Of a stretch of 64,000 bases of DNA, positions 29,335 to 44,625 are shown in pieces. The translations under genes and the position numbers were made by a program. Numbering within the stretch: position 1 is the first letter of the stretch; each line of letters begins with the position of its first letter. The notes beneath the pieces were generated by a model, which searched no databases, had not been told where the DNA came from, and saw nothing but the letters and a program-made list of their open reading frames with translations. Source of the stretch: Labilibaculum sp. DW002 (GTDB lineage: Bacteria; Bacteroidota; Bacteroidia; Bacteroidales; Marinifilaceae); NCBI RefSeq assembly GCF_029029525.1, contig NZ_JAKJSC010000004.1, positions 124,001-188,000 of the forward strand. Direction: 5' to 3'.

Positions 29335-29427
29335 CCATCATTTCCCTCCTATAATCGCGTGTTTTGAAAGGTCTTTAAGAGACTTGTAGTATTATCTCGA
29401 AAGAGTTAATGCTAGATCAAAATTCTT

Positions 29428-29490
29428 AGGAATGCTCCCACCATTCCTGATTAATAACAAATATTAATTAATAAACTAACCTAAAATTTT
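29428..29490 (+). promoter_or_regulatory. susC 5' leader: hairpin with CTCCCAC loop plus ACTAACCTAA box
   Basis: A 7-bp stem AGGAATG/CATTCCT (29428-29434 and 29442-29448) displays the loop CTCCCAC. Twenty-six bases further is ACTAACCTAA (29475-29484), ending just before the ATG at 29491. The same order (hairpin with a TCCCCAC loop, then ACTAACCTAA, then ATG) recurs on this strand in the array at 40508-41377, whose minus-strand transcripts would be complementary to both elements. No CDS is present in 29218-29490. Confidence 0.6.
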
Positions 29491-32400
29491 ATGAATCAAA
29501 ACTCAAGAGATTTAGCAAGGCAAAGCAGCCTTCTAAAGAAAAGTTTTTCATGGATTGCAAGCTTGTGTTGCGCCGTTTTTTTTATTTCGGTTACACCAGC
29601 ATATGCATCGTCCGTTAATGAAAAAAAGGAATCGACTGTGCTTCAATCTCAGGAAAAAAGAATACTGGGAAATGTGGTAGACAAAAATGGAGAATCTTTA
29701 ATTGGTGTGAATATCATCGTTAAAGGAACTACTACGGGTACCATAACTGATTTTGATGGGAATTACGAAATAAGTGTTCCTGAGAATGCAACTCTGATTT
29801 TCAGCTTTATTGGTTTCTTAAATCAAGAGGTAGCAGTAGCTGGCAAGTCAATAATTAATGTTACGCTACTAGAAGATGCTCTGGGACTTGACGAAGTTGT
29901 TGTCGTTGGGTATGGAACCCAGAAAAAAGCTAACCTTACGGGATCTGTTTCAGCTGTAAAAGGTGATGAAATGGTGAAAAAACCCATGACCGATGCACGT
30001 CAGGCCCTGCAGGGTGTATCTACTGGTGTCACAATCGTTGATCGTGGAGGAGCTCCCGGAGATGAAAATCTTAACATCAATATTCGTGGAATTGCAAGTA
30101 TACCAGATGCTAATAATGCTTCAAAAACAGCACCCTTTAGTTTTAGTCGATGGTATTGAAATGTCAATGAGTGATATAAACCCTTCTGATATTGAAAGTA
30201 TTTCAATTTTGAAAGATGCAGCATCCTCATCAATTTATGGTGCAATGGCAGCCAATGGTGTTATCCTGATTACCACAAAAAGAGGACAAGAAGGTGGCTA
30301 CAAAGTCAACTACGATGGCTATTATGGCTGGCAAACTCCTGCTACCCTACCCGAACAAGTTGGAGCTGAAGATTACCTGAACCTGGTAAACGAGGCCCTT
30401 GTTAATGCCGGACTGGATGCAAAATACTCTGATGATTACATACAGAAAACGGTTGCTGGTGACGATCCAATCAATTATCCTTATGCAAATCTGTTTGAAG
30501 AGCTGTTCGAGACCGCTCCGGTTTTCAATCAATCACTACGAATCAGTGGTGGAAATGAGAAATCAAAAATAGCCTTATCTCTGAATCATATGGATCAGGA
30601 AGGTATGCTTAAGAATGTCAGTTCGAAGCGCTATGGTTTCCGTTTGAATACAGACTTTCAGGTGAAAGACAATTTTAAAGTCAGAGCAGATGTTTCGTTC
30701 AACCGAAGAGATAACGAAAAGCCAAACAGGTTAAATTCAGCTATAGGAGCCATGGTGGGCACCTCACCCGTTACTGTTTTAAAGTATCCCAATGGTGTGT
30801 ATGGTTTGAATAAAGACAATACCAATGCCCTGGCTTGTCTTGAAGTTGGCGGAATGAATGAGTCCGTTGATGAAACGCTTAACATGAAAATCGGAACCGA
30901 TATAGAGATGGTAAAAGGCTTAACGCTTAAGGCTGATCTTTCATACAAAAGCATCAATAACCGTTACAAAAACTACACCGCTGCATATGACTTTGTGGAT
31001 CCTGAAAATACAGACAATGTCATTCAAAAATGGTCACCAAGTAAATTGGTCGATGGTCGATGGCAACAGGAGGAAATCAACTTTAAGGCCTTGCTGAATT
31101 ATAACACAAGCTTTGGCGATCATGAACTCGATCTGTTAGCAGGTACTGATATTACAGAGAATACAGCCTATATCCTTAATGGAGCGCGTAACAATATTTA
31201 CGGCGATAATTATACGGAGTTGAACACAGGTGATGCCGAAGGTCAAACCAATGAAGGTTACCAGGAAGACTGGGCTTTACTTTCATATTTGGGAAGGGTA
31301 AACTATGCCTACAAAGGCAAATACCTGCTTGAAGGAAATATCCGTTACGATGGATCATCCCGATTTGCAGAAGGAAACAAATGGGGCGTCTTCCCATCCT
31401 TTTCAGCAGGTTGGAGAGTGACGGAAGAAGATTTTATGAATGAGATTAGTATGGTAAATAACCTGAAACTAAGAGGTAGTTGGGGACAATTAGGGAATCA
31501 GAACATCGGTTACTATAAATTTTCGTCTACCGTTTATGCTGATTTCCCTTATAACTTTAACGACAACGAGGTGAATGGCTATTCGCAATGGTATTTTGCT
31601 AATACCGATATCACCTGGGAAACAACCGAAATGATAGATTTTGGTTTGGACCTTGCCTTATTCAACAACAAACTGGAAATTGTTGCTGACTGGTACCAAA
31701 AAGATACCAAAGATGTTCTGTTGAAATTGCCAATTTCATATTTAACCGGACTAAGTGCCTCAGAAACCAATGCCGGTCAGGTTCGAAACACAGGTTGGGA
31801 ACTGGCGATTACCCATCGAAATACGATTAATGATTTGACTTACTCTATCGGTTTCAATATCTCCGATGTGAAAAATGAACTGATTGACTTTGCAGGAAAC
31901 GAGCCTTCAATTAGCGGATGGACTATCCTAAAAGAAGGTGAAGCGATCAATTCATTCTACGGATATGAATCTGATGGCTTATTCCAAACTCAAGCCGAAA
32001 TTGATGCGCATGCCGTTCAACCTAACCAATCGGAGCTGAAGCCCGGTGATATTAAACTGGTTGATCAGAATGACGATGGTGAGATAAACGACGATGATCG
32101 TAAGGTCATCGGCTCTCCAATTCCACATTATACAGTTGGTCTTAACCTTTATGCCGAATACAAAGGTTTCGATTTTTCAGCCTTCTTTCAGGGTGTTCTC
32201 AAGGCTGAAAACTATTTCTATGGTGCACCTAACGAAGGTCCGGCATATGAAATCTTCACAACAACCCGTGTATTGGATCGATGGACACCTGAAAACACCG
32301 ATGCTTCCTTTCCAAGATTACAGGCTGCCTCAAACAAAAACAACTATCTGTACAACGATTTTTGGATAAGAGATGCCTCATACGTCAGATTGAAAAACCT

Positions 32401-32596
32401 GCAAATTGGTTATTCTTTCCCTAAATCTGTATTGGAAAGATTAAAGCTTGATAAATTGAGATTATATGTCGGTGGGACCAATCTGTTTACCATTACGGAT
32501 GTAGAATCGGGACTCGATCCGGAAACTTATGATGGAAGACCAAATTACTACCCACCTGTTTCAACCTATACAATGGGAATTCAAGTTCGATTCTAA
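29491..32596 (+). pseudogene. SusC/RagA-family TonB-dependent outer membrane transporter, frameshifted
   Basis: This would import oligosaccharides across the outer membrane with SusD. Part one (29491-30159) has a signal peptide, the carboxypeptidase-regulatory-like domain (GNVVDKNGESLIGVNIIV), the TonB-box region LDEVVVVGYGTQ and the first half of the plug. Part two continues in the +1 frame with [20 protein letters not shown], the rest of the plug and a complete barrel ending GIQVRF. The frames join at CACCCTTTAG (30131-30140): removing one base restores the expected APLVLVDGI. The frame is open on both sides with no other damage, so it is either a very recent mutation, a base-calling error or, less likely, programmed +1 shifting. 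Base composition rises after the first ~450 bp. Confidence 0.9.
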
Positions 32597-40489: not shown

Positions 40490-40508
40490 TATTAAGTATA
40501 TAAAATAG

Positions 40509-40599
40509 AAAAAGCTTGGATCCCCACCCAAGCTTTTCTTCTAACCACTATTTACTAACCTAATCTTTAATCTATGAAAAAACGGTTACCAGCCGTTTA
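40509..40599 (-). ncRNA. Putative small RNA, array unit 1
   Basis: On the minus strand the promoter box TATGTTTG (40605-40612) is followed, a few bases on, by a 5' hairpin AAACGG/CCGTTT, the conserved 26-nt block and the terminator hairpin GCTTGG-GTGGGGAT-CCAAGC with a five-T tail. No clear -33 TTTG is seen, so the promoter call is moderate. Predicted length is ~91 nt; ends are approximate. Confidence 0.5.
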
Positions 40600-40706
40600 C
40601 ATTACAAACATACCCCAATGTGTCGTTAAGTGCATTTAACAGATGTTAAAGAAATCTAAAAGGATATTTAATTATAGAAATTAGGAGCTAGCAGGTATTT
40701 AAACAG

Positions 40707-40798
40707 AAAAAAGCTTGGATCCCCACCCAAGCTTTTCTTCTAACCACTATTTACTAACCTAATCTTTAATCTATGAAAAAACGGTTACCAGCCGTTTA
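40707..40798 (-). ncRNA. Putative small RNA, array unit 2
   Basis: Same layout as unit 1: TATGTTTG box at 40804-40811, 5' hairpin AAACGG/CCGTTT, conserved block at 40740-40765 and the same terminator hairpin with a T tail. Ends are approximate. Confidence 0.5.
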
Positions 40799-40905
40799 CA
40801 TTACAAACATACGTCAATGTTTAGTTAAGTGCATTTAACAGATGTTAAAGAAGTCTAAAAGGCGTTTTTTTTATAGAAACTAAAAGCTAGCAGGTATATT
40901 AACAG

Positions 40906-40994
40906 AAAAAGCTTGGATCCCCACCCAAGCTTTTCTTCTAACCACTATTTACTAACCTAATCTAATCTATGAAAAAACTTTTACTCTTTGTTTA
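40906..40994 (-). ncRNA. Putative small RNA, array unit 3
   Basis: TATGTTTG box at 41000-41007, conserved block at 40938-40963 and the same terminator hairpin. The 5' hairpin is changed and weaker (AAAC/GTTT), while box, block and terminator are unchanged. Confidence 0.48.
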
Positions 40995-41101
40995 CATTAC
41001 AAACATACAACAATGTTTAGTTAAGCGCATTTAACAGATGTTAAAGAAGTCTAAAAGGCGTTTTTTTTATAGAAACTAAAAGTTAGCAGGTATATTAACA
41101 G

Positions 41102-41191
41102 AAAAAGCTTGGATCCCCACCCAAGCTTTTCTTCTAACCACTATTTACTAACCTAATCTTTAATCTATGAAAAACGGTTACCAGCCGTCTA
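41102..41191 (-). ncRNA. Putative small RNA, array unit 4
   Basis: TATGTTTG box at 41197-41204, 5' hairpin ACGG/CCGT, conserved block at 41134-41159 and the same terminator. A one-base deletion here destroys the short + strand reading frame but not the RNA features, which favours an RNA product. Confidence 0.5.
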
Positions 41192-41272
41192 CATTACAAA
41201 CATACGGCAATGTTTAGTTAAGTGCATTTAACAGATGTTAAAGAAGATTAAACATCTGTAGAAAATGGACAT

Positions 41273-41368
41273 AAAAAAACCTGAGTCCCCACTCAGGTTT
41301 TCATCTAACCACTATTTACTAACCTAATCTAAAATCTATGAAAATTTATTTTTATTCGCCTCAATATT
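41273..41368 (-). ncRNA. Putative small RNA, array unit 5 (divergent)
   Basis: The promoter-like box TACATTTA (41370-41377) matches TAnnTTTG except for the last base. The conserved block (41305-41330) is identical to units 1-4. The terminator has a different stem (CCTGAG/CTCAGG) but the same loop (TGGGGA) and a seven-T tail. Flanking DNA is unrelated to the other units. Confidence 0.45.
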
Positions 41369-41556
41369 CTAAATGTACGAAAAAAAGTGATAAACGTTAT
41401 ATTATTGATGTTAAAATTATTTAAAAAGATAGTTTGTGAATAAAAATGTCAATTATTATTATCTAATTTTATGCTTCATAATACAGAACTTTTTATAGCT
41501 CGTATAAATTATCTAAATTAGGCCCTTAGCAAAATCTAATACCCTATAGAAGCCCC

Positions 41557-44500
41557 ATGAATGAGTCAGTACTGAATGCCTTAATGAAACTTTTTGCCAT
41601 TATTGTTGATGAGCAAAAGGTTGGTTTTGAGGTTGCTGCGCATGATGTTGTAGCACATTATCTTGAAAAACAATTTAGTAAGGAATGGCTCGAAATTTAC
41701 TTGGATAATTTTGATCGCTATTTACTAGAGTCTCATTGTGATGTAGAAAATGAGACTTGTGTGATAAATAAGCACGTTCAGGTTCAAGATGTTTGTGTTA
41801 AAATAGCTGAAGAGGTTGATCAGGAACAGAAAGTATGGATCATGCTTCAGTTACTTGAATTTATTGATGAGGCAGAATTCGCTGGTCCCGAGGAGCTTAG
41901 TTTAGTAAAGACTGTTTCCAAAACATTTAAGATTTCTAAGGATGAGTTTGAATACAGTCATCAATTTATTTTAGGCGATGAATATTCAATTCCTTTTAAT
42001 CAGTATTTATTGATTATTGATGCTAATGATAATTTTGAGCATGAAGTAGTAAAGCACATTTTTAGTTCAAAATTACGTGGTCGTGTTTTTGTTCTTCGTA
42101 TCGAAAGTACCAAGACCTATTTAATTAAGTATTTTGGGGAATACAACTTATTTTTGAATGGGCATAATATAAAATACGATAGACCATATGTTCTTTCCTA
42201 TGGTTCTGTGGTACGAAGTCATAGAATTGACCCAATTTACTATTCTCAAATTGTATCTGAATTTATAGAGCGTAAAGATCATTCCGACATACGTTTTGTT
42301 GCCAAGGATATTGAATTTAAATTTCCAGGGTCGAATAATGGTGTATTTCCAGTTAATTTCCAGGTGAAATCAGGACAACTGATTGGTGTAATGGGAGGTA
42401 GTGGTACTGGTAAATCTACCTTGCTAAATGTTTTAAATGGAAATTTGCCTTTAAATCAAGGTGATATTTTTATTAATGGTTACAACTTACATCACGATAA
42501 GGAAAAATTAGAAGGTGTAATTGGTTATGTGCCTCAGGACGATCTACTGGTAGAAGAATTAACGGTTTACCAAAATTTATATTATAATGCCAAATTGTGT
42601 TTTGATGATGTTTCTGATGAAAAAATAGAGGAAATTATTGACGATACAGTTGAAAGTTTTGATTTGGTTGAAGCACGTGATTTAAAGGTTGGCGATCCAA
42701 TTAATAAGGTTTTAAGTGGTGGACAAAGAAAGCGACTGAACATTGCCTTAGAATTAATGCGAGAACCATCTATTCTATTTGTTGATGAACCAACTTCAGG
42801 CTTGTCTAGTATGGATTCGGAGAAGGTAATGCTATTGCTGAAAAGACAGGTTTTAAAAGGTAAACTGGTAATGTGTAACATTCACCAACCTTCATCTGAT
42901 ATTTTCAAGCTTTTGGATAAGCTTATTATTATGGACACGGGTGGAAAAGTGATTTATTTTGGTAATCCTATCGATGCTGTTGTTTATTTCAAAACACAAA
43001 GCCATTACGTTAAGGCAGATGAGAGTGAGTGCTTATCGTGTGGTAATGTAAATTCTGAACAGATATTAAGAATTGTGGAAGCTCGTATGATGAATGAATA
43101 CGGGAAACAAATAAGGAAGCGTAAGAGAAGTTCTGATGAATGGTATGAATTGTATCAAGAGAAGATTGAATCGAAGCATCCAGTAAAGAAACCAAAACGA
43201 AAAAGGCTGATTCCTGCTAATTATTTTAGTATTCCCAAAAGAACAGAGCAGCTGAAAATCTATTTGTCGAGGGATTTAAAAGCAAAAGTAAGCAATAAGC
43301 AATACATGTTGATTACGCTATTTGAAGCGCCGATATTAGCTGTGATATTAGGATATTTTACCAAATATATTAGTGGAACAGAAGGTGATTCAAGTGCTTA
43401 TGTTTTTTCAAATAATGAGAACATTCCATCTTTTATATTTATGGCTGTGGTTGTTTCTCTTTTTCTAGGATTGATTATTTCTGCAGAAGAAATTTTACAC
43501 GATCGAAGGATCATGAAGAGAGAATCTTTTTTGAATTTAAGTCGCTTTAGTTACTTAAATTCGAAAGTGATCATCATGCTGGTGATATCTGCATTTCAAA
43601 CTATGTTATTTGTTTTAGTTGCCAACACGATTTTGGAAATTAAGGGATTAACTTGGGAGTATTGGCTTGTTTTATACACTGCTTCGGCCTGTGCCAATAT
43701 GATTGGTTTAAATTTATCTTCAGCACTAAATACTGTTGTAGCCGTTTATGTATCTATACCTTTCATTTTAGTACCTCAACTTTTGTTTTCAGGTGTAATT
43801 GTAAATTTCACAAAATTGCACCCAACCATAACATCTCAAAAATATGTTCCTCTCGTTGGAGATTTAATGACTTCTCGTTGGGCATACGAAGCTTTGGTTG
43901 TAGAACAGTTTAAGAATAATGAATTCGAAAGGCAGTTTTTTGATTTGGAACAAGAAATGAGTGAAAATTCGTTTCGCTCTTCTTTCTATATCCCTGAAGT
44001 GAAGCAACGTTATCAAAATTGGCTACGAACAGGAGATAAGAAGCAATACAAGTTGTTAAAGAATGAATTTTCAAAATTGGTGCAGGATTATAAAGCCCCT
44101 AATGGAATTGAGTATTCAACTACTTATTTGAAAAATTCGTCTGAAGGCTTATTTAAATGGTTGGAAACGATAAAACAAAATGGCTGGTCTAAATACAGCA
44201 AAGCATCAAATGAGAGAGATAAAGTATATGCAAACCTTCTAAAAAATTTTGGAGGTAAAGAGCATTTATTTACATACAAACAGAAACATCACAATGAGGC
44301 GATTGAGCAAATTGTGCTGAATCGAAGGGAGTTAAATAAAATTATTGATTACAAAGGTGAATTAATTCAATTGAAAGATCCTATTTTTCAAATACCAGAG
44401 AATAAAACGGGACGTGCCCAATTATATGCCTCTAGAAAACGTATTGGAGATTATTTAGTTGATACCTTTTGGTTTAATGTTTTAATTGTTTGGCTTACAA

Positions 44501-44625
44501 GTTTGTTTTTTTATTTTACACTTTATTTTGATGTGCTAAGAAGAGCATTACTATTCTTCGAAATTCTGTGGGTTAAGATATTACCTGATGGCCACATTCT
44601 AATAACACGAAAACGTCAGAAATAA
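41557..44625 (+). CDS. ABC transporter, fused ATPase and ABC-2 permease (ABCG-like)
   Basis: A 1022-residue half-transporter with an unusual N-terminus. Residues 1-130 are helical and TerB-like. About 170-240 are FHA-like (YNLFLNGHNI, YVLSYGSVVRS). The ATPase follows, with Walker A GGSGTGKST at residue 280, signature LSGGQRKR near 386 and Walker B ILFVDEP. Membrane helices occupy about 600-760 plus a last pair near 975-1005. Between them lies a ~210-residue hydrophilic, charged domain (about 760-970), probably extracytoplasmic. It is the complete paralogue of the gene cut at the left edge. It is monocistronic with a terminator downstream. Export substrate unknown. Confidence 0.88.
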   Translation: MNESVLNALMKLFAIIVDEQKVGFEVAAHDVVAHYLEKQFSKEWLEIYLDNFDRYLLESHCDVENETCVINKHVQVQDVCVKIAEEVDQEQKVWIMLQLLEFIDEAEFAGPEELSLVKTVSKTFKISKDEFEYSHQFILGDEYSIPFNQYLLIIDANDNFEHEVVKHIFSSKLRGRVFVLRIESTKTYLIKYFGEYNLFLNGHNIKYDRPYVLSYGSVVRSHRIDPIYYSQIVSEFIERKDHSDIRFVAKDIEFKFPGSNNGVFPVNFQVKSGQLIGVMGGSGTGKSTLLNVLNGNLPLNQGDIFINGYNLHHDKEKLEGVIGYVPQDDLLVEELTVYQNLYYNAKLCFDDVSDEKIEEIIDDTVESFDLVEARDLKVGDPINKVLSGGQRKRLNIALELMREPSILFVDEPTSGLSSMDSEKVMLLLKRQVLKGKLVMCNIHQPSSDIFKLLDKLIIMDTGGKVIYFGNPIDAVVYFKTQSHYVKADESECLSCGNVNSEQILRIVEARMMNEYGKQIRKRKRSSDEWYELYQEKIESKHPVKKPKRKRLIPANYFSIPKRTEQLKIYLSRDLKAKVSNKQYMLITLFEAPILAVILGYFTKYISGTEGDSSAYVFSNNENIPSFIFMAVVVSLFLGLIISAEEILHDRRIMKRESFLNLSRFSYLNSKVIIMLVISAFQTMLFVLVANTILEIKGLTWEYWLVLYTASACANMIGLNLSSALNTVVAVYVSIPFILVPQLLFSGVIVNFTKLHPTITSQKYVPLVGDLMTSRWAYEALVVEQFKNNEFERQFFDLEQEMSENSFRSSFYIPEVKQRYQNWLRTGDKKQYKLLKNEFSKLVQDYKAPNGIEYSTTYLKNSSEGLFKWLETIKQNGWSKYSKASNERDKVYANLLKNFGGKEHLFTYKQKHHNEAIEQIVLNRRELNKIIDYKGELIQLKDPIFQIPENKTGRAQLYASRKRIGDYLVDTFWFNVLIVWLTSLFFYFTLYFDVLRRALLFFEILWVKILPDGHILITRKRQK

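Follow-up and report, generated by a model that had tools for sequence, protein, structure and literature searches.

A tandem array of minus-strand small RNA genes in Labilibaculum, probably FopS-like and predicted to pair at susC start regions

DonS of Bacteroides fragilis is a cis-antisense RNA that acts on a susC leader and is encoded opposite its target. Bacteroides has 14 paralogous FopS sRNAs, which bind close to susC start codons, repress translation and are antagonised by the RRM-1 protein RbpB (PMC11697453). FopS has been reported as a Bacteroidaceae family that works together with RbpB (PMC11697453). GibS (RF04182; PMC7366714) has the R1-type 5' seed common to FopS and also binds translation-initiation regions, but it is ~145 nt long, is encoded by a single copy, and has another promoter and other targets (PMC7366714). 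The core idea that multicopy sRNAs pair at susC starts is already known from Bacteroides (2025).

Here we describe an array of five direct repeats at positions 40506-41377 of a window of 64,000 nt, which corresponds to C4:124001-188000 in the 5.4-Mb genome of Labilibaculum sp. The repeats carry predicted small-RNA genes on the minus strand (Table 1) and follow each other at spacings of 199, 198, 196 and 171. A block, TCTAACCACTATTTACTAACCTAATCT, is identical in all five units and starts at 40540, 40739, 40937, 41133 and 41304. Read on the minus strand, each unit shows, in this order, a TAnnTTT(G/A) box, a leader that in some units forms a weak hairpin, UUUUUUCAUAGA and the block, then an A-rich stretch and a strong hairpin of about -16 kcal/mol, which is followed by 5-7 T. 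In unit 5, the seed and the loop are kept while the terminator stem is different. The predicted RNAs measure ~92-95 nt from the inferred start site to the terminator.

A covariance model of the family, R1, was built from 27 training sequences, among them two singletons that had been pointed out by RF04319. R1 scores the five units at 77-89 bits, with E values of ~1e-10 to 1e-13 for the whole genome, which rules out a chance origin of the array. A preliminary description of this DNA had already recognised the five-unit minus-strand array, the promoter box TATGTTTG in four of the five units and the deviating stem of unit 5 beside an unchanged block and loop, all of which we recover. Some details needed revision. 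The identical block is 27 bp long instead of 26, and the order of box, block and terminator is confirmed in all units, but the 5' hairpin assigned to each of them forms, at about -4.8 kcal/mol, in units 1, 2 and 4 and in neither unit 3 nor unit 5. Across the family this hairpin is weak (mean -1.8 kcal/mol vs -0.7 kcal/mol for shuffled sequences; p < 0.05 in 20% of 65 distinct segments), and we dropped it as a conserved, essential element.

Table 1. Positions of the predicted sRNA genes, their promoter boxes and neighbouring features within the window.
Feature	Position	Strand	Basis
sRNA unit 1 (5' stem, seed, terminator)	40506..40599	-	R1 85.9 bits, E 2e-12 whole genome; RF04319 24.5 bits
sRNA unit 2	40704..40798	-	R1 89.2 bits; RF04319 25.0 bits
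sRNA unit 3, seed variant AUUAGAUUAGGUUAG, without 5' hairpin	40903..40994	-	R1 86.6 bits; RF04319 26.3 bits; 5' fold 0.0 kcal/mol
sRNA unit 4	41099..41191	-	R1 80.9 bits; RF04319 23.7 bits
sRNA unit 5, other terminator stem, without 5' hairpin	41271..41362	-	R1 76.9 bits; RF04319 21.5 bits
Putative -7 promoter box TATGTTTG, unit 1	40605..40612	-	sequence; box pattern across family members
Putative -7 promoter box TATGTTTG, unit 2	40804..40811	-	as for unit 1
Putative -7 promoter box TATGTTTG, unit 3	41000..41007	-	as for unit 1
Putative -7 promoter box TATGTTTG, unit 4	41197..41204	-	as for unit 1
Putative -7 promoter box TACATTTA, unit 5 (equivalent place)	41370..41377	-	sequence
susC leader of the adjoining PUL: CUCCCAC-loop hairpin, ACTAACCTAA, start codon	29428..29493	+	fold and duplex; target rank 186/1,509
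ABC transporter gene, divergent to the array	41557..44625	+	Pfam ABC_tran, ABC2_membrane; orthologue adjoins sRNA copies in 14/58 related loci

In its own genome, R1 detects 12 clear copies, so that we count about 12 sRNA genes: the five units, four copies in a second array (array B, C1:2844201-2844832) and three single copies at C1:2888953, C1:193343 and C1:377433. When the core of the block was scanned in 84,980 species genomes, 58 stretches were retrieved, all of them annotated as Marinifilum, Labilibaculum or Marinifilaceae. Within the family Marinifilaceae, 52 of 59 genomes have an R1 match. Labilibaculum and Marinifilum mostly carry 8-15 copies and most other genera 0-2, although counts outside this clade may be low, as R1 was trained on it. 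Many of the copies are arranged in tandem. The array itself is also found in a genome of the same species (G344) and on contig JAEINT010000015.1 of Labilibaculum sp. MAG11 (loci L065 and L081). One unit of a same-species genome (L065:494-595) has an enlarged GATTA repeat inside the seed (GATTAGATTAGATTAGATTAGG), and the length of the seed may thus vary by slippage.

The best conserved stretch among 36 distinct members, chosen without using the exact pattern, is UUUUUUCAUAGA followed by UUAGAUUUAGGUUAG. This element reaches further 5' than the 27-bp block, whose 3' half is less conserved. A TAnnTTT(G/A/C) box is present in 130 of 143 family members, and in 114 of those it lies 34-37 nt upstream of CAU; by its sequence, the box fits the -7 element of the Bacteroidota sigma-ABfr promoter. 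In the terminator helix, 11 of 12 pairs are changed on both sides and 93.5% of cells are paired, and the slid and shuffled controls are all lower. In a MAFFT alignment, two subgroups had their terminator stems shifted against each other, and we therefore counted covariation on the model-fitted alignment, which is fitted to the structure and hence favours it. The preliminary description had proposed selection on block, loop and pairing, along with a covariation test on homologues. The seed is conserved and the terminator covaries; the 3' half of the block is less conserved and the loop varies across the family.

Such repeats could also be terminators, or a non-functional repeat of the REP-like or duplication-debris kind, from which no regulatory RNA is made. 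Duplication easily yields tandem, near-identical units of 83-196 nt, and the hairpin of unit 1 could also terminate the PUL transcript. Debris would not, however, be expected to have a seed and a promoter that are conserved across genera, flanks and stems that diverge with compensatory change, and a seed that matches susC starts specifically. We therefore judge this explanation to be highly improbable.

Instead, the array RNAs appear to be distantly related to Bacteroides FopS and to have an analogous function. The FopS model RF04319 (BTncRNA_FopS) matches all five units, on the minus strand only, at 21.5-26.3 bits. The best match in the genome has 31.0 bits and the gathering cut-off of 56 bits is not reached, nor does Rfam at gathering threshold return any match in the whole window. 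Because this cut-off was tested and the scores stay below it, we treat the array as distantly FopS-like and do not file it under RF04319. Among the 12 best RF04319 matches in the whole genome, eight are members of the array's family. In the reciprocal search, R1 recovers six of six tested bona fide FopS loci at the correct place and on the correct strand (E 6e-4 to 0.12 in 17 kb), a test that is partly dependent, given the two RF04319-derived training sequences. RF04319 itself scores above its cut-off in 55 of 295 genomes of the order and in none of four sampled genomes of the family. The GibS model RF04182 gives 18.9 bits, with one unit only. Matches to MicC and OmrA at similar bit scores were rejected as composition and terminator matches, far below the respective cut-offs.

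The units share several traits with FopS of Bacteroides thetaiotaomicron (RF04319, PMC11697453). Both are encoded by multicopy, paralogous genes (14 there, about 12 here) with sigma-ABfr-type promoters, both have a Rho-independent terminator hairpin after the seed, and both show complementarity to susC translation-initiation regions, with predicted pairing across the start codons. UUUUUUCAUAGA-UUAGAUUUAGGUUAG corresponds to the R1' seed of FopS (RF04319). This seed, GUGUUUUUCAUgGUAUUAGAUUUAAGGUUAA near the 5' end, has the form GUUUUUUCAU-G-UUAGAUUUA-GGUUA; it is aligned in the units, is the best conserved part of the family and is detected reciprocally. In contrast to FopS, which is ~65-70 nt long and has an unstructured 5' end, the array RNAs score below the Rfam cut-off, have a predicted length of ~90 nt, and carry an extra 3' seed part, UAAAUAGUGGUUAG, as well as an optional weak 5' hairpin. 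Tandem arrays are prominent in Labilibaculum, but some genomes also have bona fide FopS genes close to one another, as in the groups of other Bacteroidales at L164:923, 1487 and 1750 and at G133:C1:3141137-3141708.

The preliminary description had taken DonS as its model and a multicopy array with loop-loop and leader pairing, directly behind a PUL, as new. The array is antisense to no susC, and the published match is FopS, already a multicopy family at susC starts (PMC11697453, RF04319). Like DonS, the array RNAs would act on susC-type leaders. Unlike DonS, they are encoded away from their predicted targets and match many susC leaders imperfectly. A DonS-type cis-antisense RNA was rejected, as 11 kb separate the array from the susC leader, and the related loci elsewhere are without a full SusC gene.

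Each unit has a plus strand that resembles a susC leader followed by ATGAAAA. The units might accordingly be copies or remnants of such leaders (hairpin, ACTAACCTAA, ATGAAAAA...), serving as decoys or sponges, or they might be genes for small peptides. The TAnnTTTG box at fixed spacing and the long T tract, however, sit on the minus strand, which is also the only strand matched by RF04319. A conserved frame was not found for plus-strand small peptides or decoys: in unit 4 the frame shifts after ATGAAAAAC, and unit 5 encodes an unrelated peptide. We consider a functional plus strand very unlikely, and sRNA genes on the minus strand remain our preferred reading.

If the units encode trans-acting sRNAs, their seed should distinguish susC starts from those of other genes. 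We computed seed pairing with RNAduplex for the region -60..+20 in 2.07 Mb of the genome, comparing 31 susC-class starts with 1,469 other genes. The mean energies, which disregard target accessibility and the sRNA's own structure, are -22.4 kcal/mol for susC and -14.0 kcal/mol for the other genes (AUC 0.895); in the RNAfold structures of units 1, 2 and 4, part of the seed is paired. None of 150 dinucleotide-shuffled seeds equals the real one, the maximum AUC being 0.77. The signal is confined to -60..+20, is gone at -220..-60 and +20..+380 of susC, and holds against other MK-starting genes. Even without the UUUUUUCAU part, the seed core still separates the upstream regions, also from those of MK-starting genes (0/100 shuffles as good).

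Among 1,509 ranked targets, 22 of the 31 susC genes fall within the top 100, and ranks 1-4 are all susC, the first of them starting at C1:556105. The predicted duplex spans the ATG in 28/31 cases. A low-ranking entry on the susC list stems from the broken susC of the window, of which it is the second half, and does not mark a real start. A repeat of the test in Marinifilum flexuosum gave an AUC of 0.83 (0/200 shuffles). In line with this, the proposed aim in trans at several susC leaders is upheld in two genera by genome-wide enrichment, both against shuffled seeds and against other genes. The motif CTAA(C/T)CTAA occurs upstream of 7/31 susC vs 4/1,475 other genes. Separately, 4/31 susC genes vs 8/1,475 others have a C-rich tract, CCC(C/T)CC, in their upstream region (p = 6e-5), one of these tracts being at about 29343-29350; the tract is perhaps a regulator site.

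The adjoining PUL had figured prominently in the preliminary description, and the elements described there are indeed present. The susC leader folds into a hairpin with a CUCCCAC loop at 29428-29448, and the complementary element ACTAACCTAA lies at 29475-29484, before the susC ATG. Interaction prediction with the leader yields a duplex, but as a target this susC is one among many and not the best, given its rank (Table 1). The PUL susC (29491-32596) is split by a frameshift inside the Plug domain, whereas G344 has a single open frame of 1,036 aa; the frameshift is either an assembly error or a recent mutation.

It had further been suggested that a GUGGGGA loop of the sRNA kisses the CUCCCAC loop and adds to the leader pairing, as would an antisense RNA directed at the neighbouring PUL. 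Six pairs could form between the two loops, including one G-U pair. Across 2 Mb of the genome, UGGGGA loops on terminators occur in the five units and, apart from these, only in a single weak member of the family. A U-A pair, however, closes the terminator loop into a GGGG tetraloop, and GUGGGGA is therefore not an open loop of 7 nt. It is also absent from array B, the single copies and most Marinifilum members, which share the seed, and is a mark of a subfamily. A genome-wide search of susC leaders found (T/C)CCCAC in 1/31 susC upstream regions vs 8/1,475 others (p = 0.17). As conserved complementary loops were found in neither the RNA family nor its targets, we abandoned a kissing-loop antisense RNA, which we hold to be most improbable. 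The weak family member, at C2:354129-354217 (L116, 30.8 bits), has the rare UGGGGA terminator loop, which recurs on several different stems.

Nor is the PUL a conserved neighbour. A full SusC gene is found in 0/58 related stretches, and five have weaker TonB-receptor-like matches. The conserved neighbour of the array is the ABC gene at 41557, and the PUL is adjacent in this species only. The significance once attached to the PUL neighbourhood is not supported, and cis action on the adjoining PUL was rejected on the basis of synteny and of the target rank of its susC.

FopS is associated with the RRM-1 protein RbpB, and here the array differs from it again: neither this genome nor 25 others of its clade have an RRM_1 match (the positive control was detected), and no Hfq was found in this genome (control genomes were detected). 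RRM_1 is missing from all 26 genomes sampled in the own genus and its neighbours (g1, g185, g192-g196), which carry 1-15 R1 copies; the 29 RRM-positive genomes of the family carry 0-2. Among the Marinifilaceae genomes G295-G349, RRM_1 is absent from the whole Labilibaculum/Marinifilum branch and present in most other genera. That the absence of RRM_1 and the R1 copy number go together is suggestive only, and may reflect one evolutionary event.

Overall, we propose that the array very probably comprises five tandem genes for FopS-like, trans-acting repressors of SusC translation. The computations support the gene anatomy, the conservation and covariation within the family, the relation to FopS and the target specificity; transcription, repression, a dosage effect and independence of RRM-1 or Hfq are predictions drawn from them. 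Each ~90-nt minus-strand sRNA would be transcribed from its own sigma-ABfr-type promoter and ended by the intrinsic terminator. The seed, UUUUUUCAUAGA(U)UUAGAUUUAGGUUAGUAAAUAGUGGUUAG, is for the most part single-stranded. It is antisense to the initiation-region consensus of SusC-type genes, ...CUAACCUAAAUCUAAUCUAUGAAAAAA, and could pair across the start codons of many susC mRNAs simultaneously. Pairing in the cell would block ribosome entry and lower the translation of outer-membrane glycan importers, and the tandem copies would increase the dosage of the sRNA. A more far-reaching proposal, which we put forward tentatively and consider possible rather than probable, is that the marine branch of Marinifilaceae controls most of its SusC importers through a FopS-like network that involves neither an RRM-1 nor an Hfq chaperone. 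Here, tandem amplification, and possibly the extra 5' stem and the longer seed, would replace the protein that tunes FopS.

Among the papers searched, none describes such RNAs in Marinifilaceae. New features are the lineage, the array size with its tandem dosage, the longer seed and the absence of an RRM protein; tandem copies as such are not unique. That one seed fits most susC start regions suggests that regulation keeps susC leaders mutually similar. The tandem arrays make gene dosage directly testable. If the range of the family includes marine Marinifilaceae without RRM-1 proteins, the control of glycan importers by sRNAs would predate the RRM-1 protein and be separable from it.
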